Below, piece after piece: positions 24,476 to 59,286 of a DNA stretch of 64,000 nt. Under the pieces are notes generated by a model. The model had not been told where the DNA came from and ran no database searches. It worked only from the letters and a program-made list of their open reading frames with translations. A program made the position numbers and the translations under genes. Location: NCBI GenBank assembly GCA_001600635.1, contig BCKL01000003.1, forward strand, positions 819,923 to 883,922, written 5' to 3'. Position 1 is the stretch's first letter. Each line of letters opens with the position of its first letter. This DNA comes from Leucosporidium creatinivorum. Taxonomy: Eukaryota; Basidiomycota; Microbotryomycetes; Leucosporidiales; Leucosporidiaceae.

Positions 24476-24737
24476 GCGAGTTGCTGATGAGGTACAGACG
24501 AGATTAGGGCTGAGGTTGAGGGACGCTCAACCCCTTCCGCGCTTCCGCTCCTTGCCCTCCTCCCTGTCGCTCGGCTCTGACTTGTCGGCTTTCGGCTCTA
24601 GGTGAGCAGCTCACTTGGCTATACCTACCACTGCTCAGCTCACTCTGCTGCTCTGTACCCTCCTACATCCCTCTATTTCCAGACTCAGCTCTAAAGGACG
24701 TCAACACTCGGCTGAGCTTCTCTCTCAGACCTGCAAG

Positions 24738-27700
24738 ATGAAGCAGCGTAAAGCAGGCAGCGGCGGCCAGCGCGCCAACGCTCCCAAATCCATCGACATC
24801 TCCACCACCACCTCCCCTTCCGCCTCCTCGCCCGAACCTTCCCCTCCCCTCGCCGCTTCCTCCGCCCTCCGCGTCCCTCTCTTCCGTCGCAAACCAAAGG
24901 GCACAGACGTTGAACCAGAAGTAACACTCTATCCCGATACTGGACGAGCGAGGATCAACGCACCCCAGACGCCGTACCATGAGCTCGATCTGAGCGATAC
25001 CTTTCTCAACGCGCTCCACACCGGCAGCTTTGAACCCAAGAAGACGTGGTTCAGGAAACGGAGGGCTTTCTTTGTCATCGGTGGACTGCTCGGGATCTTC
25101 TGCGGGTGCGTCAGCACGCGTGTTCGACCTCGAAGAAAGGTCGCCGAGCCTCCGAGCTGATCCCTCCCTCGCTTTCCACAGCTGGCTCTTCACCGAAGGC
25201 GACTCGCTCTCCAACCTCAAGATGGACTTTGAGACCCTCTCCTCCAGCTGGGACCTGCAGAACCTCGTGGCCGACTTCCCTTCCTTCCCTCTAAACGTCA
25301 CCGAGTACCTCGCCCCCGGGCGCGATTGGCTCAATGCCAAAGGATCCAACTTTGTCGTCGGGCGAGATGCTGCTGAACGGGGGTTGAAGAAGAAGCATGC
25401 GGTGGTTATTGTGCCAGGTATCAGTGAGTCGCTGTTGAGGCTTTCGACCCATCTCGGCGCAGCAGCTGATCCTCATCTCTCCTCCACAGTCTCCAGCGTT
25501 TGTCTTCCACACTCTCCACCGCTCTCAAACCCTTCCACTGACCCTCTTACATAACCCAGGGCCTCGAATCCTGGTCCACCACCCCCGACGCCGCCCCCTT
25601 CTTCCGCAAGCGCATTTGGGCCAGCACGGCCATGGTTCGCGCTATCCTCACGAGCAAGGAGACGTGGGTGCGAGCGATGAGTTTGGACGAGTTTACGGGG
25701 CTGGATCCGCCTGGGTATAAGGGTGCGTTTAGAAGTACGAGGAAGAGGACGAGAGAGGGAAGCTGATCGCCGAGCTTGATTGAGCAGTTCGGGCGGCGCA
25801 AGGACTTGATGCGGCGACTTCTTTTATGCCTGGTGAGCCTCACTCTTGACTCTGAGACGTCACTCGTATGCTGACTTGTCCTTCTACAGGCTACTGTACG
25901 TCTTCGACGCTCGACTTGCCGCCACCGGGACCCGCTGACCTCTTCACTCACAGGGATCTGGCAGAAGGTCATCGAGAGTGAGTCGCTAAGACTGTCAGAC
26001 TCGAATCGAACTAATAGCTCCTCCTCTCTCAGACCTCGCCGTCCTCGACTACGACCATGACGACATGCACCTCGTTTCCTGTTCGCTCGGTGCTCCCTCG
26101 CCTCACTCGGCTCGCAAGCTGATACCCTCGCTTGCTCAACAGACGACTGGCGACTAGCCTACTACAACCTCGAAGTCCGCGACCAATACTTCTCGCGCCT
26201 CAAGAGTCAGATCGACTTCAATTTGGACATCAGCGGCAAGAAGACAGTCCTCGTCTCGCACTCGATGGGCTCGCTCGTCGTCTTGGTGCGTCTCGGCTTC
26301 TTCTTGCTCGGCGAGCGATGATTGCTGATGTGAGTTGGATGCCCGCAGTGGTTCCTCAAATGGGTCGAGGCTGAGGAGCACGGCAAGGGGGGCTCGACGT
26401 GGTGCGAAGATCACATCTCGGACTGGGTGAGCTAGCTCACCGCCTCTTCCTCTCTCCCTCGATGGCTGACCCTCTCCATCGACTACAGATCAACATCTCC
26501 GGGTGCGCATCTCTCCCCTCCTTGCTCCTCCACCCGCCGCTGACCCTCTCCCCCTCTCAGAACCATGCTCGGCGTCCCCAAAGCCATGTCCGCCCTCCTC
26601 TCGGGCGAGATGCGCGATACCGTCGAAATCAACGCTGCGGGAGTCTACCTTCTCGAGCGCTTCTTCTCGAGGAGCGAGAGGGCCAAGCTGTTCCGCTCGT
26701 GGGCTGGTGCGGTGAGTACGAGCGAGCGCTACAGAGGGCAGATGAGACGGGAAGCTGATGCCTCTTGCGCGGCAGACTTCAATGATGCTCAAGGGAGGGT
26801 GAGTCGATGAGTTCGGGGGCTGTTCTTTAATCTGAGCTGACTTTACACCTCGCCTTCAGCAACTCCGTATGGGGAGACGAGACCGGCGCGCCCGACGACG
26901 CCGAGAACGCCGAGCTCAGTAACGGCAAGATCTAGTCCGTCTTTTGTCACTTCCCTTCCTCCAGCTCCTTCGCTGACCTGCTCGCCCACAGCTACTTCAA
27001 GCCCGAAGTGGAGAGCAACGAAACCGAGATCAACTCGGCGACCGCCAACCTCAACCTCACGCTCAACGACGCGACGACCTACATCCTGGACCACGTCCCC
27101 CCTTCCTACCAAGCGATGATGCACTCGAATTACTCCTTCGGCATGGAGAAGGACCCCGAGGTCATCGCCGCCAACGACAAGGACCACCGCAAGTGGACCA
27201 ACCCGCTCGAAGTCCGTTTGCCCAACGCTCCGAGCATGTCCGTCTACTGTCTTTACGGCGTGGGCAAGGAAACGGAGAGGGCCTACTTCTATCAGAATGG
27301 GGGGTACGAGCAGGATGAGGCGCCGACGGTCCTCGAGAGTCAGAGCCAGTCGGATGGGGTGGACGAGACGCCGAGGGCGCCGTTGGATCTGCCGCTAAGT
27401 CGGAGGGTGTGGATTGACGGGACGGTAACGCTGCCGGACTCCCATGAGCCGAAGGTCAGGAGTGGAGTCGTGTTCGGTGATGGGGATGGAACGGTCAGCT
27501 TGCTCAGTTTGGGCGCCATGTAAGTTCAAGTGTCCATCCTTGCGGCTCAAAGCTATTCGCTGACCTCCCTACCGCTTTGCAGGTGTGTTGACGGATGGAA
27601 AGTAGGTCGTCGTGCTCCCTCGGCGTTTGATCTCGGCTGACCTTCTTGCTCTCCATAGCGCGACATCTACAACCCCGGTCGCAGCAAGGTCATCACTCAC

Positions 27701-27986
27701 GAGATCAAGCACGAGCTAGCAGGTCTCGATCCCCGTGGCCCTACGAGCGCCGATCATGTACGTTTGCTGCTTCACTCATTCGATTCCCGAGCTGACCTTC
27801 TCTCCGCAACCTCCTCCTCACCGCCCTCTCCTTCTCGCCTCGCACTCTCTCCAGGTCGACATTCTAGGCAACAACGAGCTGAACGAAGCCATCCTCGAGA
27901 TCGTCACGGGCAACGGCCACAGCGTCAAGGATGTCATCCTCTCCAAGATTGTCGAGTTCTCGCGCAAGATTCGCTGGACAGATTAG
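24738..27986 (+). CDS. LRO1: Phospholipid:diacylglycerol acyltransferase (PDAT, Lro1-type)
   Basis: PDAT moves an acyl chain from the sn-2 position of a phospholipid to diacylglycerol, making triacylglycerol in the ER without acyl-CoA. The start at 24738 (MKQRKAGSGG) has an AAGATGA context. A basic, disordered N-terminus of about 110 residues precedes one TM helix (RAFFVIGGLLGIFCGWLF). The lumenal LCAT-like hydrolase domain includes KKKHAVVIVPGIISSGLESW, the lid-type region FFRKRIWASTAMVRAIL, DDMHLVSYDWRLAYYNLE, and the nucleophile elbow KTVLVSHSMGSLVV. The Asp region is GVVFGDGDGTVSLLSLG and the His region ADHVDILGNNELNEAIL. All three catalytic elements are present. Length is about 670 residues. 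Oleaginous red yeasts use this enzyme for lipid storage, which suits the suspected lineage. Confidence 0.93.
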
Positions 27987-38841: not shown

Positions 38842-41811
38842 CGTGGTCTGAGAAGGTCCAACAAGCTGATTCAAGAGAGCAGTGGACGGCGAGAGGGAGC
38901 GAGGTGGGGCGGGGCTGAGCGCCAGGAGGAGCGTTCAGAAGGGCTCAAAGTGGTGGATGGAAAGTTGCCAGTGAGACCAATAGATATCTAAAAGCAGCTC
39001 TGTGGCATTCACAGTCATCCTAGTGCCCTTGGAGACGACCCAGCGCGGCCCACATCATCGCCGAACTCTCAGGGAGAGGAACAGGAGCAGGAGTTGTACC
39101 GAGTCGATGTACAACCGTAGGCCTAGCTGACTTCTATATACTTCTATTTGTGGCTCCTGGCGCAATATTTCGAGCAGGAAGGGCGTCTCCGTGAACTGCT
39201 CGGCAGAGACGACCCCTTGCCGCCGCTCTGCTCGCTGTTGAAGCGCTCTCCAGTGTCCGCTCGAGCACGGATCATACTTATATAATTACTTAGTGCCCTC
39301 CACTGACCCACCGTAGCACAGACGCCCCCTTCCCTACCACCCAGCCGCCATCACCGAGATCCGCGAATGGTCCGGCAATACGGCGGGCTCTAGCTCGTTA
39401 CAGAAGGTACTTGAGGCTACTAGGGTGCTCGGCTCTTGTAGTGCAATATTTCGGCATAGTGTTAAAAATCGGAGGGGGGTTCTAGTGCAGTGCAAGGTGT
39501 TGAAATCGGCGTTTAAAGTGCGGATTGTCAAAAATCGAGCTACAGACTCTCCAGCAGGTGCCAGAAACCCCAAATTCACTGCTGTACATCCGAAAGATGT
39601 AGTGGTTTAGTGGTAAAATTGGGCATTGCCATCTGATGACATCTTGCCTAGCCCCGGGTTCAATTCCCGGCTACATCATTAATTTTGCTTCTCTGATGTA
39701 TCCGCAGTAATCGGACTTCATTTTTTTGCGCAGAAATCATGAACAACATCCCAATCTACCGCCCAGACTGACGGACACCCCTGCTGGTGACCTCAGTCTC
39801 GAGATATTGCCGTCGGAAGGGTTCCAGCTCGGCGATGGTTCTCTCGCTCACTGCACCAGGTGCACACCTCTGTTTGCTCCAGACAGCCACGGCATGACAT
39901 CCAGTATACTAGAAGTACACTTATGCCGACTTGTAGCTTACCTGCAGCAGAGGACTCGCATCTACATCGACCTCTCGGATCTCGGCGAGGAGCACAGGAC
40001 CGGCAAGCTAGGCTGGCCGGCGCTGGTGAGGCACAGTGATGCCAAGTGAACACCAGATTGACCCGTGTAGACCACACTGATGCCTCGGCCACCCTTGGAC
40101 CCGTCTCTGGCTCTGCAACTGCGCTCAGCGAGCCAGTCGGGCGAGCGCCAAAGAGAAGCCCTTTCTCCTCCGCCAGCTGCGACCTCCTGCTCCTGCTCAG
40201 AGTGAGAGGCTGCAGATATCTCCAACCTGATTACTGCAACGCTGTCAGCCTCTCTACAGCGCCCTCCCTCTAACGCAACTACCCACTCCCCACTCCACTC
40301 GGCACTCTGACCACTCCTCTCGACGAAAGTGCCCACTCTTCACATCCCAGGAAACACTTTGAAGGCAGCTCATGCTTCACTCTCGGTAGTGCAGCTCTCC
40401 GCATCAAGTGCAAGCAAGTCGAACAGACGAGATCTCGACGTCGACAGGCCATGCGAGCTCTCACTCTCGGAGCGGGAAGCCATCGCCGAGGTCGGCAGGG
40501 GCGAGCAGGAGACAGTTGGACCGGCGAGAGGTGAGCTCGGAATGTGAGGCCTGTAGCTGTATCATTCTCTCCTCTACTACATGCACCAGCAGGATTCGCA
40601 CACCCTCTGAGAGGCGGCGGAACACTCTTCCGCCGGCGGATGGAATTGATTCCGCCTCGTCAGGAAACGTTTGAGGTGGCTCAGAGCTGACCTTGCAGAG
40701 GTGTGGAAGGTGGTATGCGTATTTGAACTTGCTGGTTGTACCACAGACGGCCAAGACCTAGCCACTGAGGGGCAGCAGCCTCGGTCGACCCTACTCGGCG
40801 CCGACGCGCAAGCCTTGATCTTAGCAAGCAGAGACCGAGATAGCCTGCACTTCTGGCATTCGTATTTCAAGAGTACTATGAGTCTCCCTGCCGAGCTACA
40901 GCCTCTGCAGTCACCATCTCGGCACCCTCAAAGAGTTTCCTGAGTCGTGTACTTTCCCGGTTTTTTTTTCCGGTTAATCGCATCGCTGCCGCCTCGTATC
41001 TCTGCTCAGGCAAGGCTCGCAGCGCCTGTTGGGCGTAGCAGGCTGTAACAACACTGTACTCAATCTCCGAGCGCTCTGCGAGCCTGGATGTCCCACCTTT
41101 GGCCGTCTGCTCCATCGCCGAAGGTCGCTCGCCTCCCTTCTGACCGCTCTTGTGGGCTCTCGGCACCTCTATAGCTCTCAGAGCCCTCTGCACTCAGCTT
41201 CGTGAGTCACCTCCCGCCTCTCCCTTTCAACCAATCCCATGCTCTCCAGGCTCGACGAGCGGCAGGTCACCGCCCGAGGAGCGGCGGTACCGCCCGCAGG
41301 TCAGGAAACAAATCGGAGATGCCAAAAAAGGTGAGCTACAGAAGAGCAGACCTGAATGAGCATGTGCTTGAGGTGTTGTAGCGCCGTTGTCGAGTTACAA
41401 CGAGCCTGGAGCGCCATGCACGCCATAAGGTCGAGCTTGTCGCCGTCGGCCGAGCCACCCTCTCGGCAATGTCAAAAGGGAAGCAGTGCAGCAAGGGGTA
41501 CATCGGCGGCGCGATGACAGGTCATAGTCCTCAGCGAGTAGCGTTCTTGAAAGGCAAGGGCGGGGAGCTGGTCTGGAACCGAAGAGAGGCGATTAAACGC
41601 TTCGCCGAGCCCTCTCCCTATAGCGATTGTGAGGTTTGGAGAGACGACGAGAGCCACCTCGCATTCACAGTAGACCAGCGTGGCGCTTCCCTGAACCCAT
41701 TACAAAGAGCTAAAAGCCTGGTCACGTCCTTTATCTCCGAGTCGGTCTCGACATCTTGAAGCGTGCTGGTTTCCCAATGAAGTCGCCTTTGCCGCCTGCA
41801 CGGAGATCGGC
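38842..41811. other. Gene-poor region containing one tRNA gene
   Basis: Nearly 3 kb with no supportable protein gene on either strand. Open frames are short and lack the local codon bias, and no exon chain could be built. Around 39100-39600 the sequence is less GC-rich than elsewhere and contains two copies of GCAATATTTCG (39162-39172 and 39444-39454). A tRNA-Gly gene lies at 39596-39678. From 40100 to 41700 the sequence regains normal composition but still shows no gene; degraded coding remnants are possible but cannot be named. Confidence 0.5.
39596..39678 (+). tRNA. tRNA-Gly (anticodon GCC) with a 12-nt intron
   Basis: The acceptor stem GATGTAG pairs perfectly with CTACATC, followed by discriminator A. 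The D arm contains AGTGGTA (A box), and the T arm CCGGG-TTCAATT-CCCGG is perfect (B box GGTTCAATTCC). The anticodon stem GGGCA/TGCCT closes a loop TTGCCAT with anticodon GCC. Between position 37/38 and the 3' half of the stem lies a 12-nt insert, CTGATGACATCT or the same shifted by one, at the canonical tRNA intron site. No other RNA gene was recognised nearby. Confidence 0.9.
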
Positions 41812-46808: not shown

Positions 46809-48946
46809 ATGTCACAATTCCTCCTCGCGGCCATTACTCACCCTAATGAGGCCAAAGCCATGGTAAACTACTCGATCTGGCGCGATCCTCTCAGCCAAAT
46901 CGAATCAAACCCCGAATCTGGATGGTATGTAGTGCTCTTACACCCCCCGAACCACCGCCCTACAGCCCGAGCTGACTCCGCTACACCCACCAGGACCCGC
47001 GCCGACATGAAGAGGTGCTGGGAGCTGCTCGACCAGACCTCGAGGTCTTTCGCCGCCGTCATTAAAGAGTTGGAGGGCGACTTGTCCCGTGTTGTACGTC
47101 TATCTGCCTACAGCCCATCCCAGCCCGAGCTGCGAAGCTGACCTTTGCACCCCGAACGCGTCTCGTCGTCCAGGTCGCCCTCTTCTACCTCGTCCTCCGC
47201 GCTCTCGACACTGTAGAGGATGACATGACCCTCAGCATCGATGTCAAGGCGCCCATTCTCGAGAACTTTTACCTCAAGCTCGAGGAGGATGGATGGAACT
47301 TCACCGAGTGTGCGCTTTGGCCTTTCGCTCCTCCTGCCCTGCCGACGAGCGGTGCTGATCCCTCGATACTACACAACCACAGCCGGACCCGACGAGAAGG
47401 ATCGTCAACTTTTGGTCGACTTCCCCGTCGTCATCAACGAGTTCAAGCGTCTCAGCCCCGAGTAAGTCCCGTCCCGTCGTGCTCGGCGAGAGGTTGAACT
47501 CGAAGCTAATCCTCCCGCACCAGATACCGCGAGGCCATCTCGGACATCACCAAGAAGATGGGAGCTGGCATGTCGCGCTACGCCAAGCTGCACGCCTCCA
47601 ACGGCGGCAAGTTCTCGGTCGACACGCTCGCCTCGTTCGACCTCTACTGCCACTACGTCGCCGGGCTCGTCGGCGAGGGCCTCTCGCGCCTCTTCTCCGC
47701 CTCGGGCAAGGAGTCGGTGCACCTCGGCGAGCAGGTGACCCTGTCCAACTCGATGGGCCTCCTGCTGCAGAAGACCAACATTATGCGCGACTTCCGAGAG
47801 GACACGGATGAGGGCCGAGTCTTTTGGCCGGCCGAGATTTGGAGCAAGTACGCGTCCAAGCCGGAGGAGTTGTACGCCCCTGGGAATGAGGAGAAGGCCA
47901 TGTGGGCCTTGAGCGAGATGACGGTGGATGCGCTCACCCATGCCACCGACGCGCTCGACTACCTCACCCTCCTCACCAACCAATCCGTGTTCAACTTTTG
48001 CGCCATCCCTCAAGTCATGGCCGTCGCGACCCTCAACGAGTGCTTCATGAACCCCAAGGTCATGCACCAGAACGTCAAGATTCGCAAGGGCATGGCCGTC
48101 AACGTGAGTCCTTCTCGGACTTCTCTTGCTCGACCGAGCGCCGAGCTGACCGCCCTCCATCTCGCTCCCACAGCTCATCATGCAAGCCTCCAACCCTCGT
48201 GACGTCGCCTACATCTTCCGCGACACCCTCCGCTCCATCCACGCCCGTGCCCGCGCCAACGACCCTTCCTTCATCAAGCTCGCTGTTCTCGCCGGTCGTG
48301 TACGCCTCTCTCTCCTCTCGCGCCCTTCTCTATCTCCACCCTAACCTCCCTCTCACGCAGGTCGAGCAATGGACCGAATCGCGCTACCCCTCCTTCATTC
48401 AAATTGGCGCCCCGGCGCCCAAGTCGAGGGAGGATTGGAGGGAGGGCATGGATGCCAGGATCAAACAGCTCAAGGGGCCCGATGCCGAGATGACGGAGAG
48501 GAAGAGGAGGGCGGATTTGCTCAATGGCAAGAAGATGACGGGCGAGGATGTGAGTACTGCGCTCTCGGCGAGGGGAGAGGAGGGCTGAGGAAGGGGAGGA
48601 GGGCCGAGCTGACTCAGACTTGCTTTCGCGGTGCGCAGTACAAGTTCATGGCTTTGTTGGTCGGTGAGTGGTTCTCGTATGGACTGCGACGACCGAGCTT
48701 GTGCTGATTCGTGCGCTGCTGCACAGGTGGAGTTCTCGGTTTGATCACCCTTATGATCGCTATCGGTGGACTCGCACTTTGGTTCTTCCTTATCAGGGAA
48801 GGAGCCATGTTTGGAGTGAGTGTTCTGCGTTCGTCTCGAGAGCTCCCGCTGACCCTCCCGCTTGACAGGAATCGCTCGGTGGACAGACCCCAGCGACCGC
48901 TTCGGCGACTCCCTCCCTGTATGGAATGCCTCACGGCGAGCTCTAG
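46809..48946 (+). CDS. ERG9: Squalene synthase (farnesyl-diphosphate farnesyltransferase)
   Basis: Joins two farnesyl diphosphates to squalene with NADPH, the first committed step to ergosterol, on the ER membrane. The start at 46809 (MSQFLLAAITHPNEAKAMV) follows what looks like a leader intron ending TTTAACAG. Catalytic motifs are TSRSFAAVIKELEGDLSR, YLVLRALDTVEDDMT (first DxxED-type Asp cluster), SRYAKLHASNGGKF, YCHYVAGLVGEGLSRLF, and LQKTNIMRDFREDTDEGRVF (second Asp cluster and DYxED-like motif). The C-terminal region is a long basic linker and one TM helix (GVLGLITLMIAIGGLALWFF), followed by a short Gly-rich tail. Length is about 500 residues with about nine introns. All motifs look intact. 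Confidence 0.95.
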
Positions 48947-49240: not shown

Positions 49241-51226
49241 ATGCACAACGGTTCGAGCATCAAGCTCCTCACGGGTGAGCTCGTACAGCAGCTCCCTGTA
49301 GCTCTCTTCCCAGCTCTCGCTCTCTTACGAAGAAAGCGCGAGCTAAAGAGCTACAACACGAGGCACAAAAATTGACCCTCCCCTTCGCTCGTCTGTCTGC
49401 TTCTGCATGCGACTCTTTCGGTCGCTGTGATCAGGCAACAGTCACCCTGAGCTCGCTCAGCAGGTCGCAAAGAGGTGAGTGCTCGGTAGATTTTGCTGTA
49501 GCGCTTGGAGGAGAGCTGGATAAGTGACGAGCACGCATGAGGGAGGGGAGTAGGTCGGAGATGGGATTTGGGAGGGAAGGGCAGAGGCTACAGAGCAGGG
49601 GCAGGGGAAGGTCGGCAAGATCTGTAGCATAGCAGATCCCAACCACCTCAGCTCCTACAGAACTCATCTCCCAATCTCCGCAATCACTCGCTTGACCGCG
49701 GTTCGCTGACTCTTCGCTCTCGCTTCAATAGGCTCGGCATCCCCTTGACCAAGTGCACCGTCAAAAAGTTCAGCGACAACGAAACGTCCGTCTCCATCGG
49801 CGAATCGGTGCGCGAGGAGGACGTCTTCATCCTCCAAACGGGCTTCAACCCCTCGCCCTACCCCTTCGGCTCCAAAGCCCGTCACTACGGCGAGGCCGGC
49901 GTCGGCGCCGACATCTCGAGGCCTGGTACTCCCGTCGCTTCCCGCCCTGTTACCCCTCTGCCTGGAGGACATGGTGTCGCTGGAGCAGTGGCCGCCGGAG
50001 CCAACAAGCCTGCGCCCGAGCCTTTCAACGATCCTAACGACCTGTTGATGGAGCTGTTGATCCTCATCTCGGCTTGCAAGACGGCTAGCGCAAAGAGGAT
50101 CACCGCCGTCATCCCTTGCTTCCCTTACTCTCGCATGGTTCGTCTTTCTCTCGCTTCTTAGACTTCGGCTCGGCGCTGACGATTCGACCCGGGAAACAGG
50201 ACCGCAAGGACAAGTCTCGCGCGCCCATCACCGCCAAGCTCGTGGCCAACATGCTCCAAATCGCTGGATGCGACCACGTCATCACCATGGACTTGCACGC
50301 CTCGCAGATCCAGGGATTCTTCGAAGTCCCCGTCGACAACCTTTGGACCGAGCCTAGCATGATCCGGTGGGTCTGGGGAGGCGTTGAAGATGCTTCATAG
50401 CCTGTGCTGATTCATTCTGTCGTGCTGCAGCTGGGTCAAGGACAACATCCAGGACTGGAGGGACGTGATTATCGTCTCGCCCGACGCCGGAGGAGCCAAG
50501 CGGTTCGTCTTTGCCTTCTTCCTACCATCTTCTCTTCCCTCAATCTGACCCCCACTCTACCTACAGCGCCACCACCCTCGCTGACCGCCTGGACGTCGAC
50601 TTTGCCCTCATCAACCGGAATCGGTCCAAGGGCGACGCGCCCGACTCGGAGGGCAGGATGGAGATCCTCGTAGGAGACGTCAAGAACAAGGTGGCCATCC
50701 TCATTGATGATATGTGCGATACTGGATCGACCATCCGTCTGGCGACCCAGACGCTGATGAACAGTGGCGCCAAGGCCGTTTACGCTGTCGTTTCGCATGG
50801 TGGGTCCTTTCTTCGGCATTGGGAGAGAGTGAGAAGCTGACGCCCCCTGCTGCAGGTCTGCTGTCGGGAGAGAGCATGTACGAGCTCGCCAAGCTGCCGT
50901 TGGAGAAGATTGTCGTAAGTTGCCCTTCTCGCTTTCTTCGCCGAAGGTGAAGCGCAGAAACTCACCTCGCTTCCGCTACTACAGGTCTCCAACACCATCT
51001 GCCAAACGGAGCACATCAAGCAAGCCAATGGCAAGCTCGAGATCATGGACATTTCCCCCGTCTTGGCCGAGTCGATTCGCCGAGTGAGTTCAGCTTTCGC
51101 TCTCGGACCTCCTCCCTCGTCTCTTGAGCAGCTCGCTGATCCTCGCTCACACACCTTGAACAGACGCACAACGGAGAGTCCATCTCGCTCCTCTTCTCTG
51201 AAGGTGGCGCCAGCATGTTCTCGTAG
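49241..51226 (+). CDS. Ribose-phosphate pyrophosphokinase (PRPP synthetase)
   Basis: Makes PRPP from ribose 5-phosphate and ATP for purine, pyrimidine, His and Trp synthesis. The start is [20 protein letters not shown]. Motifs in order: [40 protein letters not shown] (ATP-binding flexible loop region), [34 protein letters not shown] (pyrophosphate loop) and [20 protein letters not shown] (PRPP-binding loop). The protein ends [13 protein letters not shown], as usual. Between ILQTGF and [15 protein letters not shown] sits an insertion of about 65 residues rich in Gly, Ala and Pro, absent from the short classical enzymes; yeast Prs1 and Prs5 also carry non-homologous inserts, though not necessarily here. 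The first two introns are long for this genome (160 and 257 nt). Confidence 0.93.
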
Positions 51227-52364: not shown

Positions 52365-55300
52365 ATGTCCACACCGATTCATTCCATGTACTCTTCTACC
52401 TCGCCCCAGCACCACGGCGATCAGGCTCACGGCGGAGCTTCGTCCAACGCCCCCGCTGGAGCCTACGACGACGCCATCACCTCGCCCGACCTCGACGGCC
52501 ACCACCACTCGAACGAGCCCCTCCGTCCCCAGTACGGCGACGGATACGATCCCGACAGCAACTCCGGTTCCCGCCGCGAGTCCTACATGGATTCCGACCT
52601 CGAGATGCGCAAGTACCAAGGGCTCTCCGCCTCGGGCGTGCAGGGTTACCAGGCCGTCACGAGCGACCACTCGGAGCCTGGAAGCCCTACCGGCGAGAAC
52701 GGATCCTACGAGCGCTCCCACGAGAGCGGCAGCAGCGGCACCAAGGTCGAAACCCCTGGTGGTCAGAGGCACCAGAGGCCCGACACCATGAGCAGCGACG
52801 GCAGCTACGACATGAGGGCTGGTGGAGCTCACACTGTGAGTCGTTGGATGCATCATCGAGCTACAGGAAGAACGGCGAGCTGACCCTTGTCGCTTCTTCC
52901 TCATCTCCCTCGTTCATTCACCGCCTTTCGCCAAACAGTCCGAGTCCGGTCACCCCGCCTACGGAGCTGGCTACCAGGATGCTGGCCTCTACAACCCCTC
53001 TTCGCCGTCGGCCCACTTTGGTCGCTACCGCGAGGGCTCGTTCGGTCAACACTCGGGAATCGAGTCGGGTCGCGCTTCCACCATCGGCACCGACCACTCC
53101 CCCTCGGGCCTTCCTCACAACTCGTCGCGCGTCGCCCTCAACAACGAGTGGCGCAACTCGTACGACCAGGGCTCCGACATGAGCCGCGGTATGGCCATCG
53201 CCGAGATTGCCCCCGGCAAGGAAGGCTACGGCCACTCGGACCCTCGCTACGACGAGATCAGCCACGAGAAGGGCCTCATCCACGACAAGACCTACGCTCC
53301 CATCCCTCCTTCCTCGCCCGCCGTCGGCGCTCCCGAGAAGGCCGGAGCCAGGGATCCTCCCGAGGTCGTCATCTCGCGCACCAACCGTCTCGACTGGATT
53401 GACGGTCTTCGCGGTATCGCCTCGGTCATCATCTTCGCCCACCACTTCTCCGATCTTACTTGGTCCCAGCGCTTCCCCAACGTCCTCGCCGAGGGTAGTC
53501 TCGAGGGTATCCTGAGGTGCGTTGCTTGACCGAACTCTCCCTCGCCGAGCTTACGCTCACTCTTTCGCTCTCTCGTAGGAACGGACAACTCGCCGTCGGC
53601 ATGTACTTCGTCCTCGGAGGTCGTGTCCTCGCCGCCTCCTTCCTCAAGTCGGCCTTCACCGTCCCCAAGGCTCCCGTCGTCCACGGCGACGACGAGCCCG
53701 AGAAGCCCGTCGTCCCCCGCAAGCCTCCCGGCCCTCGCTGGCTCTCGCTTTCGTCGTCCCTCTTCCGTCGCTCCATCCGTCTCGCCTTCCCCGCCATCAT
53801 CGTCGGCTTCATCCAATGGAAGGTCTGCGTCGACGGCCTCATGGAGACCGCCATTGTCGCCCAGGAGACCTTCCTCGCCCCTTCGTCCATGTGGCGACCT
53901 ACGTGGTGCAACATCGGCAACTTTGCCGGCTTCCTCCAGTTCTGCCTCGACCTCTTCACCGAGCGTAACCACCAGTACATGCTCGTCGTCGGTTCCGCCC
54001 TCTGGACGACCTACGATCAGTTCTGGGGATCCGTCCTCGTCTACATTGTCGCCGCCATGCTCGCTCCTCTCCCCTCGCGTGGAAGGTACTCGGTCTACGC
54101 CGTCATCCTCGTCTCGCTTTGGTGGATCAACTCGCCCAACATGCTGTAAGCTGCCCTTTCTCGCCGTCGCCTGCTTCGCCGAGCTCATTCGCTGACCTTC
54201 CTGCGACCGCTACAGCTACATGTGGGGACTCTTCCTCGCCGACTTCCACGCTTCCGGCTACGTTCGCAAGATCCAGGACTCGTGGAAGCTCACCGTCGGA
54301 ATCGAGATCGGCGCCATGGCCCTCGCCATGTCGATGATTGCTGGAGGAACCAACGTCATGGGACCCGCCAACCGCGCCATGGGCAAGATCACCGTCTACG
54401 ACGGCAAGTTCGGATGGAGCCCCGACGCCGTTTGGCCTCAGTACATGCTCATGAGTAACTGGTGAGTCGTTGGCGAGCTTCAGCGATGATGGCGAGCGCG
54501 ACGAAATGCAGCAGCTGACTCTCTCGCTCTTCTACCTCTCTATAGGATCCCTCCCACCATGATCCTCCTCTGGGTCGAGCTCTCGCACTGCATGCAGTGG
54601 TTCGCTTCGTGGCGCCTCTTCGTCTGGGTCGGCAAGGTCTCGTACGGCTTCTACCTCATGCAGTTCCTCACCCTCTACGGAATCCTCCCCCACGTCGTCC
54701 TCTACCTCGCCGGTCAAGATCGCACCTACTGGGGAGTCATCGTGCCCGCCTTCATCATCTGCCTTCTCACCAACTTCCTCATCGCCTGGTGAGTTTCGCT
54801 TCGTTCTCACTCGCGCCGAATCGAAGCGAGACGCTAACGTTGAGCTTCTACCATCGAACAGGGCCTCCTACCACCTCCTCGACCGCGTCGGCCTCAAGCT
54901 CGGAAAGTGGATCTGGGACGGATTCTTCGTCACGAAGCCCAACACCGCCGGCTCGCTCCCCATGAAGATGGTTCGCGCTCTCGGAGACGTCGTCGTCCAC
55001 GGCCCCGGACGCGCCGTTCGCGACATCTCGACCGGCTCGTCGAAGAAGTGGACCGGCCTCTGCTCCGGCCTTCACACCCTCTTCCACTGGCGTACTCCCA
55101 CCACTCGTCCCGCCGTTCCCGACCCCACCGACCCCGAGGTGCTCTCGCAGCTCCACTCGACTCGCTGGAACTCGGACCTCAGCCACGACAAGGAGGCGAC
55201 GCGCACGGCCAAGCTCCTCAAGGTTCAGAGCTACGCCTGGATCCCTCACCTTTTCCTCATCCCCGGTCTCACCGTCGTTTGGATCATCTACCACCCTACC

Positions 55301-57166
55301 GGACAGTGGACCTACGACGCCCTCACCTTCTCGTCGCTCTGGCGCTTCGTCTGGGTCCTCTCGCTCCCCAACTGCCTCTTCGCGTGGGTCGGCTTCATCA
55401 CCCCCGACATGGTCTACTCCAAGGAGGTCATGGACAAGAAGCCCGTCCACCGCGAGTACATTCGCAACTTCTTCATCGTCCTCGTCACCAAGGGATCCAA
55501 CGAGGCCGCCGTTCGCCGTGGTTACAACAAGCTCATCAAGCTCGAGAAGTACCACCCCTCGGTCAAGGTCGTCGTCCTCACGGATGAGCCCTACGTCTAC
55601 CCCGACCTCCAAAACATCGTCTGCCCCAAGTCGTACAAGTCGCCGCTCGGTGAGTTTTCGAGCGCCTGGAAGCTTCGGCGGGCGAGCGCTGACCATCCTT
55701 CTTCTCCCACGCAGGCAAGGCCAAGTACAAGGCTCGCGCTCTCGACTACTTCCGTTACCACGTCTCGCTCGGTGTCTACGATTGGATCTTGCACATGTAC
55801 GTTCTCGAGACGAGCGATCGCGCCGAGGGTTCAGGAGACGGTCGCTAATCTTGTCCTCGCTTCTCTTCATCCCTTCTTCTTCTCCCACCTACTTCTCCTT
55901 CTAACAACAGGGATGAAGAGTCCACGACCGACGGCGAGTCGCTCCGCCACTGCATCGAGTTCATCCGCTACACTCCCCACCACTTTGGCCAAGGCATCAT
56001 CTTGTACAACGGAGAAGGATTCTGGGAGAACTGGTACTTCACCGTCGCCGATGGTATCCGTGTTGGAGACGATCTCGCTCGCTTCCACTTCCAAAACTCG
56101 GTCATCCATCGCCCCGTCTTCGGTGTCCACGGATCGTTCCTCATGACCAACGGAGAGATGGAGAACGAGTGTACTTGGTATGTTGACCTCTCTTGCTTTC
56201 GTCGTCGCCTACATAACGCTGACCTCGTCCTTCGCCTCGCAGGGATTTCGGATCGCTCGCCGAAGGTTCGTTCGACTTTCTGGCTTGCTCTACGCCTCGG
56301 CGGCGCTCTCGTGTAGCGTACTAACGCTTTTCGACTCGCCACAGATTTCGAGTTCTCGCAGGACGCCTGGCGCCGTGGCTTCACCTCGGGACGTATTCAC
56401 GGAATCGTTCGCGAGCAGTCCCCGACCACTCTACGTGATTTCCTCAAGCAGCGTCGTCGTTGGTTCATGGGTATCGTGCGCAAACGCTATTCTTACGTCT
56501 AGAAAGGTGCAGGACTGACCCTCGCTCGTTTCCCACCTTCAGCGCGACATCAAGGGTCTCTACGGTCTTCCTAACCTCGCCATCAACCTTTGGTAAGTTC
56601 TGATCGCCCGTTCGATGCACCAGAGCAGCTACTGATCTTTACTACAGGATCGTCGGAGTCTTCACCCTCGCCGTCACCATCATCAACTTGCCCCTCGGAT
56701 TCATCGAGCACTCGCTCACGCCCCTTTGGGTCGCCGTCTGCGCCAACTTCTGCTTCATTACCTTCTTTGTGAGTTACACACAACTCTATACAACTCTTTC
56801 CGTCGCGCCGTTCTCGCTAGCAACGGCGAGAGCGGTCGGAAGACCGCCGTCGCCGTCCGAGCCGAGCGCTGACTTTGCGCTCTTCCTAGACGCTCTACCT
56901 CTGGGGTATCCTCTTCCAGGAGCTCGATTTCGGACAGACCTGGTGGAAGATCCCTATTCACATCTTGTGCTCCGTCATCATTCAGCGTAAGTCTCGAGGC
57001 GACCTTCGCGCTCGGCTTTCGTGCTCGGCGAACGTTTTCCCTTCGTTCTCCTTTCGCTGACTCGCTCTCCCATGCAGCTTTCGCGTCCGTGGCAGAGGGA
57101 TTGAGTGCAATCTGGGCTATGAGCAGTGAAGATTTCGGAAAGTTCGAGGTTATCGTCAAAAGGTAG
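52365..57166 (+). CDS. Acyltransferase-3 / GT2 glycosyltransferase fusion protein
   Basis: One continuous spliced frame of roughly 1,400 residues joins two enzyme families. Residues 1 to about 300 are Ser/Gly/His-rich and disordered. At RTNRLDWIDGLRGIASVIIF and AHHF an acyltransferase-3 (OafA/NodX-like) membrane domain starts, with many TM helices and a late WVGKVSYGFYLMQFLTLYG motif. A linker and two more helices (IPHLFLIPGLTVVWIIYH; WRFVWVLSLPNCLFAWVGF) lead to a GT2 domain like Egghead/BRE-3: VKVVVLTDEPYVYPDL, WILHMDEEST (Asp motif), HFGQGIILYN, DGIRVGDDLARFHFQ, VFGVHGSFLMTNGEME, SLAEDFEFSQDAWRRGF (ED) and FLKQRRRWFMGI (QxxRW). C-terminal helices follow. Both halves look catalytically complete except that the AT3 late motif has Gln where many have His. 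It probably acts in an ER/Golgi or plasma membrane, adding acyl and sugar groups to a glycolipid or polysaccharide; that is inference. Confidence 0.85.
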
Positions 57167-57696: not shown

Positions 57697-59286
57697 ATGG
57701 CTCGCTCAAAGTTCACCGAGATTGAGCAGAAGGGCGTCCCGGAGGGTGCAAACTACGTCGAGGCGCAGACCGCTCATCCTGTATGTTCTCAACGCGGCTA
57801 GGAGCAGCGCAGGGCTGACCCTTAGCCTCAGCTCGAAGGAGTGACGGCGGAGTCGTTTCTCGCTTCCGCAGGCATTGCCACGGCTACTCTCAAATGGGAC
57901 GGCCAAGACGAGCCCTTCACCTTCGAACTTGAGAGCAAGCAGTTCCGGTGAGTCGTACTGAGCGCGGTCCGAGCAGCATCGAGTGGGGGCGCGCGAAGTG
58001 GATGGTAGAAGGGTTACAAGCTGATGCAGCTCTCTTCACAGCACGGGGAGTTTCGGCTACACCCTTCCCATCGAATCGCAGCAGATTTCTGGCCCTTCCG
58101 TATCGACCCACGACGCCAAAACGATCGCCGAGCCTGCCTTCGCCTTCTCCCTCAACTTGACGGTGGGTGCAAAGGCCATCCCTCTCCGATATTTATCAGT
58201 AGCTTAGTCTCTTTCAATCGCACAGCTCCGCCGATCCGCCGAGCTCCCTACTACAAACGCCGAGGCTGTCGCCGTCATCGAGGACGAGAAGTCGTTGGCA
58301 GTCGCCGAGAAGGACAAGGCGAGTGGGTCCAAGGCTGGAAAAAAGGTGAGCTCTCCTGCTCGACAGCCTGGCGCCTCCCCGTTGGATGCCGGTGGACAAG
58401 CCACGCGGGAGAGCTGACCTCGCCGGAAACGCTTTGCGCGCAGGACGGATCGACCAAGAAGTCCGAGAAGAAGGCTGCTCCCAAGCAGAAAAAGGGAGAA
58501 GACGATGAGGAGGAGGAGAAGCCCAAGAAGAAGGTCAGTCGGGCCTCCCAGTCGAGTCGTGGCCACTCACGAGGCGGTGCTCACCTCGCGACCCTCTTCG
58601 TCTCGCAGGCTCCCGCCAAGAAGACCAAGGCCAAGGCCAAAAAGGACGCTTTCGAATCTGAGGAGGATGTGAGTTGTGAGTTTGGCCGCTCGGAGATCGA
58701 CCGAGCAGGAGCTGACTTCTGCCCGGCCCTTCCGCCTGCACGCCTGCAGGAGAAGCCCAAGATGAAGGTTCGGGCTTCGATTTATCTCCTTCTCGCTCGG
58801 CTTGCATGCTTACTCCTCTCCCATTCCAACAGACGCCTGCGAAGCGCGCTCGCAAGGAGGACTCCGAGGAGGCGAGCCTTTTCGCTTCTCTTGCCGTTTT
58901 CGAGAATCGACACTGACCCTACTTCAACCAAACAGGACGAAAAGCACCGCAAGCTTCCGAGTCGCACCGTCAGCAAGAACAACAGCATGACCAGCTCCAA
59001 CAAGAGCTTCAAAGCCAAGTCGGGCAAGACCGACGTTGTCGACTTCGCTTCGTCGTCGTCTGGCGAGTCGGAGGGATATGTGGAGCCGGATGAGAACGGC
59101 GAAGGCTCGTCTGAGGAGTATAGGGACGGCTCTTCCGACTCGGAGGACGAGCTGCTGGCGAGGAAGAAGGCGGGGAGGGCTAGTGGAGGAGGGAAGGCCG
59201 GAGCGAAGGGCAAGGGGAATGGAAAGGCGAGGAAGGTGCAGGCTAAGGCTGGCGGTGGACGTTTGAAGAAGCGTCAAAACTACTAG
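57697..59286 (+). CDS. Unknown protein with basic/acidic low-complexity tail, probably nuclear
   Basis: The start at 57697 gives MARSKFTEIEQKGVPEGANY. Residues 1 to about 115 form a compact-looking domain with beta-like segments (TATLKWDGQDEPFTFELE, TGSFGYTLPIESQQIS, AFAFSLNLTLRRSAELP). The rest, about 220 residues, alternates Lys-rich and Glu/Asp/Ser-rich stretches (KKSEKKAAPKQKKGEDDEEE, KKTKAKAKKDAFESEED, SSSSGESEGYVEPDENGEGS) and ends in a Gly/Lys-rich basic tail, GGGRLKKRQNY. This recalls histone chaperones and chromatin or nucleolar proteins with an N-terminal beta domain, such as nucleoplasmin-like folds, but no signature proves it. Several short exons encode the charged repeats, each starting near a Pro-Ala-Lys motif, suggesting exon duplication. 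Confidence 0.7.

Follow-up and report, generated by a model that had tools for sequence, protein, structure and literature searches.

A predicted AT3-GT2 fusion protein of the basidiomycete Leucosporidium creatinivorum that may couple sugar synthesis with O-acylation

Introduction

Membrane proteins of the acyltransferase-3 (AT3) type fused to other domains exist in Eukarya (PMC9833829). The commonest fusion partners are SGNH and alanine racemase domains (PMC9558356), and NRF-AT3 proteins have also been mentioned (PMC12423673, the main text of which does not contain the word glycosyltransferase). Only a small number of AT3 proteins from eukaryotes have been characterised, according to a 2022 review, which also states that it is not known what its worm and fly examples acylate (PMC9558356). 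Here we describe a gene of Leucosporidium creatinivorum whose predicted product joins an AT3 domain to a membrane glycosyltransferase of family 2 (GT2). It lies at 52365-57166 (+ strand) of a 64,000-nucleotide stretch of contig BCKL01000003.1 (assembly GCA_001600635.1, positions 819,923 to 883,922), hereafter called the window, to which all coordinates refer. Both halves are of known kinds, while their combination looks undescribed: searches of the open-access literature revealed no AT3-GT2 fusion among the papers listed. As far as these searches go, the statement in an earlier note on this DNA that no characterised enzyme is known to join the two domains holds.

Gene structure and domain content

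The splice model and its translation gave a single gene composed of 14 exons and 13 introns, encoding 1250 amino acids followed by a stop codon. The predicted start, which is the first ATG in this frame, lies at 52365, and the last base of the stop codon is 57166, so that the limits proposed in the earlier note proved correct; its exons were also rightly said to join in phase, but their number, given as some ten, was too low. All of the introns are of the GT...AG type (55-121 nt), and the joined frame contains no internal stop. The exons occupy positions 52365-52835, 52939-53516, 53579-54145, 54216-54461, 54546-54788, 54862-55649 and 55715-55796 (exons 1-7), and 55911-56177, 56243-56265, 56345-56475, 56543-56592, 56648-56768, 56890-56986 and 57078-57166 (exons 8-14). 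A branch-like word (CTGAC or CTAAC) is present in 11 of the 13 introns, i.e. in all except introns 2 and 11. In nine of these 11 introns the word begins 21-31 bases before the intron end.

The N-terminal region (residues 1-300; 52365-53367, with the intron 52836-52938 inside) is of low complexity and rich in Ser, Gly and Pro; no Pfam family was matched within it, and it is presumably disordered and cytosolic.

The AT3 domain (Acyl_transf_3, PF01757) covers residues 309-702 (53392-54862, introns inside) and was matched over model positions 2-326 of 326 with E=1.8e-14 (54.0 bits; cut-off 31). Three of the motifs defined for this family in PMC9833829 and PMC12423673 were found by motif search: DxxRx10H in transmembrane helix 1 (TMH1; D312, R315 and H326; 53401-53445), RxxR in TMH3 (R414 and R417; 53769-53780) and SxxxY in the presumed TMH9 (S653 and Y657; 54640-54654). 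The R-X10-H and RXXR residues are essential according to PMC9833829.

The GT2 homology region, delimited by BLASTP and alignment with two bacterial stand-alone GT2s (see below), extends over residues 824-1250 (55226-57163, introns inside). Within it, residues 988-1185 matched Glyco_trans_2_3 (PF13632) over model positions 1-185 of 198 (E=1.3e-28; 100.6 bits; cut-off 27). A third Pfam family, PF13641, remained below its cut-off, and PF07779 (Cas1p) was not among these three, the only families that matched at E<=1. NCBIfam gave nothing at E<=0.1 for either half. Two transmembrane (TM) segments (residues 827-845 and 864-882) precede the glycosyltransferase core and three follow it. The motifs, located by search and alignment, comprise VVVLTDEPY (55568-55594), the Asp943 of which is invariant in the three-way alignment; HMDEES (residues 991-996; 55792-55923, split by intron 7), presumed to be the metal/nucleotide-sugar motif; AEDFEF (residues 1087-1092; 56259-56355, split by intron 9), a catalytic-base motif of the TED type; and QRRRW (residues 1124-1128; 56449-56463), which represents QxxRW.

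The splice choices within this half are backed independently by the two bacterial homologues, whose intronless genes aligned to residues 824-1240 (38.7%) and 828-1249 (36.0%). The exon 10 donor is supported by their alignment across this very join (QRRRWFMG-IRD in the fungal protein, QRRRWLLG-IRS in the bacterial ones). Since the AT3 and GT2 motifs are intact, and since the alignment with the bacterial relatives extends to the last residues, neither half looks decayed.

Coding potential across the junction of the two domains

Exon 6 (54862-55649) begins where the Pfam AT3 match stops and carries, in one uninterrupted frame, the end of the AT3 domain, the linker, the GT2 TM pair and the start of the catalytic core. 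The linker comprises approximately 100 residues (720-817; 54914-55207, limits approximate) and is presumably cytosolic; no stop codon occurs through it into the GT2 half. We scored the exon by the codon usage of the other 13 exons, in nine windows of 30 codons each (the last of 22). In the joined frame all nine gave positive scores, between 0.44 and 1.12 bits per codon, and in the other two frames their scores were negative. The 33 codons that precede the first Met of exon 6 (54962) scored 1.03 bits per codon, and 31 of them end in G or C. As a noncoding reference we used 3082 overlapping windows of the same length, taken from both strands of 1640 flanking bases that were treated as noncoding; their mean was -0.87 and their maximum 0.43, and none reached 1.03.

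A single coding sequence across the AT3/GT2 join is thus well supported by codon bias, and we infer that it is expressed as a single transcript. The Pfam matches, the motifs, the coding bias and the alignment with the bacterial homologues all bear out the suggestion of the earlier note, the quoted motifs of which are present in our translation, that one predicted protein combines a complete-looking AT3 domain with a complete-looking membrane GT2.

Relatives of the two halves

No relatives were found among viral contigs with the exon 6 piece, nor with the 277-aa GT2 core, which gave four pattern matches there; the core found none among phages, and its 34 pattern matches in prokaryotic genomes included no relative. 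The AT3 half alone had no match among plasmids. A plasmid search with tblastn detected eight haloarchaeal records (24-28% identity). The GT2s of four of these records aligned with the GT2 half at 23-25% identity, sharing the same motifs and showing an 11-residue gap at the FWENW stretch.

A second scan of prokaryotic genomes, based on the alignment of the GT2 half with these four sequences, yielded 95 relatives, of which 80, representing 79 distinct loci, were kept. The closest two, L005 from a metagenome-assembled genome (MAG) of Xenococcaceae (L005:4947-6245) and L006 from a MAG of Myxococcales (L006:4896-6209), reached 38.7% over 429 columns and 36.0% over 425 columns, respectively. They encode stand-alone proteins of 433 and 438 amino acids that agree with the GT2 half in their TM pair, motifs and C-terminus; the DEE (993-995), AED (1087-1089) and QRRRW (1124-1128) of the fungal protein are conserved in both, and both exceed the PF13632 cut-off. 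Matches at E<=1e-30 within the samples drawn from their phyla were confined to the genome of origin in each case (1 of 292 genomes for L005, 1 of 282 for L006). The occurrence of these GT2s looks sporadic, and gene transfer or MAG contamination is possible.

The other 77 loci were at 22-34%, and most carry the names of halophilic archaea. They (L007-L083) form a family of membrane GT2s of roughly 400 amino acids related to the fungal GT2 half. A stop was flagged in some of the matches; in L005 and L006 the flagged stop is the terminal stop of the gene, and the same may apply to the other flags.

Co-occurrence with AT3 was analysed in a sample of these genomes: removal of 17 further loci of genomes already listed left 62 of the 79, 50 of which were submitted, and 49 genomes were searched. 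A GT2 relative at E<=1e-20 was recovered in 48 of them and AT3 in three, on a contig different from that of the listed GT2 (C181 and C217, respectively, in genome G002; C20 as against C4 and C18 in G594; C12 and C18 in G606). The fused form was present in none of the 49, although in these draft genomes the AT3 and GT2 genes might still be near each other. This distribution, which concerns prokaryotes and is silent on other fungi, speaks against the two functions having been paired since ancient times and sets the fungal fusion apart.

Fold of a cyanobacterial relative of the GT2 half

The cyanobacterial relative L005 served as a proxy for the fungal GT2 half in structure modelling, alongside 17 other prokaryotic sequences (mean pLDDT of the L005 model 78.0, pTM 0.79). 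The PDB matches of this model, obtained with Foldseek, included E. coli BcsA (E=2.7e-9), the hyaluronan synthase of Chlorella virus (E=1.7e-8), hyaluronan synthase 1 of Xenopus (E=9.3e-8) and PcManGT, a mannosyltransferase (E=1.4e-6; TMt 0.55-0.56); the lowest E-values were those of cellulose and hyaluronan synthases. At the sequence level, a profile search matched only cellulose synthase entries (E=0.049-0.056, BcsA at 0.049), over the TED and QxxRW region. A PDB sequence search with the whole protein gave nothing at E<=1, and with the GT2 half 11 matches at chance level (E 0.3-1.2). Because the fold of L005 resembles that of cellulose and hyaluronan synthases and also that of a mannosyltransferase, the model suggests that a polymer synthase is as possible as a single-sugar transferase of the Egghead type.

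Proposed function and alternative explanations

The reading that we consider most likely, at about an even chance (probability roughly 0.5), is that the predicted protein is a single bifunctional membrane enzyme, with a GT2 half that makes a sugar product or extends it and an AT3 half that O-acylates this product. The activities, topology and order of steps, as well as the shared product, the sugar and the acyl group, are what we infer from sequence, as follows. The GT2 half, composed of two TM helices, a cytosolic GT-A core (DEE, AED and QRRRW) and then about three TM helices, would draw on a nucleotide sugar from the cytosol in building or lengthening a sugar chain or a glycolipid head group, and the product would reach the outer or luminal side, as with hyaluronan and cellulose synthases. 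The AT3 half would bind cytosolic acyl-coenzyme A (acyl-CoA) via R315, R414 and R417 and, aided by H326, move the acyl group, most likely acetyl, onto a hydroxyl of this product at the outer or luminal face, the linker coupling acylation to synthesis. An AT3 protein with 10 TMHs is reported to have both ends in the cytoplasm, and the model proposed for it has cytosolic acyl-CoA presented to the outer face (PMC9833829). The topology of the fusion would be compatible with this, since the AT3 ends would be cytoplasmic and the TM pair ahead of the GT core would return the core to the cytosol.

If this coupled activity is confirmed, the synthesis of a surface sugar and its acylation may both be the work of one protein. 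Being a natural fusion to a GT2, the protein would point to the acceptor, since the first substrate to consider for the AT3 half would be the GT2 product. The gene would make O-acylated fungal surface sugars or glycolipids accessible by simple genetics, and would offer a natural scaffold for the one-step making of acylated glycans.

Several points weigh against such a coupled enzyme. In the AT3 half, the FxxxxG position of TMH2, placed by eye, reads Y359-x4-G364, with Tyr replacing Phe, a substitution counted as conservative in PMC12423673. A second conserved His is listed in TMH9 (PMC2824669); the SYGFYLMQF stretch of the fungal protein contains no His, and with this position unaligned the residue was not located. 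A simple hydropathy scan detected seven segments in the AT3 region, compared with the 10 TM helices expected. Against solved synthases the L005 model, itself a proxy, reached moderate TM-scores (by query, 0.46-0.58 for ranks 1-18; rmsd 6.0-17.7). The occurrence of AT3 in three of 49 genomes, on different contigs, together with the stand-alone nature of the relatives, provides no independent association in favour of a shared product, and each half could have a substrate of its own.

A possible, though somewhat doubtful, alternative is that the protein is fused as predicted but that its GT2 half is a non-processive enzyme of the Egghead/BRE-3 type, adding one sugar (e.g. mannose) to a glycolipid, while the AT3 half acylates the glycolipid or an unrelated acceptor, in the Golgi or the plasma membrane. 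The motifs seem to resemble those of Egghead, Egghead is cited as a beta1,4-mannosyltransferase of glycosphingolipid synthesis (PMC10337751), and the L005 model matches PcManGT at the TMt given above. However, kinship with Egghead or BRE-3 is putative, cellulose and hyaluronan synthases have the lowest Foldseek E-values, and the passages of a paper on the sugars of fungal sphingolipids name families GT1, GT28, GT31, GT32 and GT33, both of its matches to "GT2" belonging to GT28 (PMC13161914).

A more specific form of the coupled enzyme, a synthase and decorator in one polypeptide that makes, exports and O-acetylates a beta-mannan, glucomannan or similar surface polysaccharide, seems unlikely. 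In its favour, the exopolysaccharide that red yeasts of the Rhodotorula/Rhodosporidium kind secrete is rich in mannose (84 mol% in R. babjevae; PMC7191244), O-acetyl groups have been reported on a Tremella exopolysaccharide (PMC9728225), and the fold matches of L005 include a mannosyltransferase; against it, the main text of PMC7191244 nowhere contains the word "acetyl". Polyol-ester synthesis, a role raised in the earlier note, has no direct evidence for or against it, and the acetyltransferase acting on polyol esters is described as unidentified in PMC5749799.

It is rather improbable that the AT3 half is catalytically dead and serves the GT2 half as a membrane anchor, CoA sensor or export channel. 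The much weaker Pfam match of AT3 compared with that of GT2, the Tyr at residue 359 and the detection of just seven clear helices would fit such a loss of function, but DxxRx10H, RxxR and SxxxY are all intact and the Phe/Tyr exchange is the conservative one noted above.

The presence of two adjacent genes is very improbable and was rejected on the coding bias of exon 6. In this reading, retention of intron 5 would bring a TGA (54790-54792) immediately behind LIAW, at the end of the Pfam AT3 match, and thereby close an AT3 gene, and a GT2 gene would begin at Met 54962. However, the 33 codons before this Met are strongly coding, intron 5 carries the signals GTGAGT, CTAAC and ACAG, and a terminator, a promoter and the untranslated regions of both genes would have to fit into just ~170 bases.

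Genomic surroundings

Ten neighbouring coding pieces were analysed with Pfam, nine originating from 9 of the 11 gene groups (g7 and g8 were left out) and the tenth being the downstream gene. Seven matched a family (CTP synthase, sulfate permease, Sec5, LCAT, squalene/phytoene synthase, PRPP synthetase and SMP/C2) and three matched none; these ten pieces, which cover part of the window, do not suggest a polysaccharide or glycolipid gene cluster. The best PDB match of the CTP synthase piece was 7rkh (E=8.3e-52), which we take to be the yeast CTP synthase, and the SMP/C2 neighbour has a MUG190-like SMP domain; like the style of the introns, both fit a fungal source. The gene of the LCAT-type acyltransferase (24705-27977, +; Pfam) is presumably PDAT/LRO1-like. 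The squalene/phytoene synthase family gene is located at 47162-48296 (+; Pfam), and the pieces of the PRPP synthetase gene, upstream of the fusion gene, at 49733-50364 (+), with a Gly/Pro/Ala-rich stretch within the N-terminal domain. The next gene downstream (57698-59286, +) encodes a protein that starts MARSKFTEIEQKG and contains acidic and Lys-rich stretches; its N-terminal pieces had no Pfam match, and we assume it to be nucleoplasmin/FKBP-like. A tRNA gene at 39596-39678 (+; 53.3 bits) was the sole Rfam match of the window at gathering scores.

Comparison with known systems

The fungal protein resembles the AT3 O-acyltransferases of PF01757, and in particular the AT3-SGNH proteins OafB and OatA, in its above-cut-off Pfam match, in the DxxRx10H, RxxR and SxxxY motifs and in having a second catalytic domain C-terminal of AT3. 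It differs from OafB and OatA in that this partner is a membrane glycosyltransferase with a presumably cytosolic core, instead of an extracytoplasmic SGNH domain, and in its long low-complexity N-terminus. Cryptococcus Cas1p, which combines a PC-esterase with a 10TM acyltransferase (PMC2824669), offers a fungal parallel, as a fused acyltransferase whose target is a surface glycan; unlike it, the fusion described here has a different partner domain and no PF07779 match at E<=1.

With regard to the GT2 half, the bacterial L005 and L006 proteins lack an AT3 domain, and the haloarchaeal GT2s, which share the same motifs, are distant and stand-alone. The likeness to Egghead and BRE-3, the animal glycosphingolipid GT2s, is a putative one at the level of motifs; to our knowledge, these enzymes have no AT3 domain. 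BcsA and the hyaluronan synthases of Chlorella virus and Xenopus contain no AT3 either and show no significant sequence match; the fold of the L005 model resembles theirs, and the TED/QxxRW region of the fungal protein aligns with that of BcsA (E=0.049).

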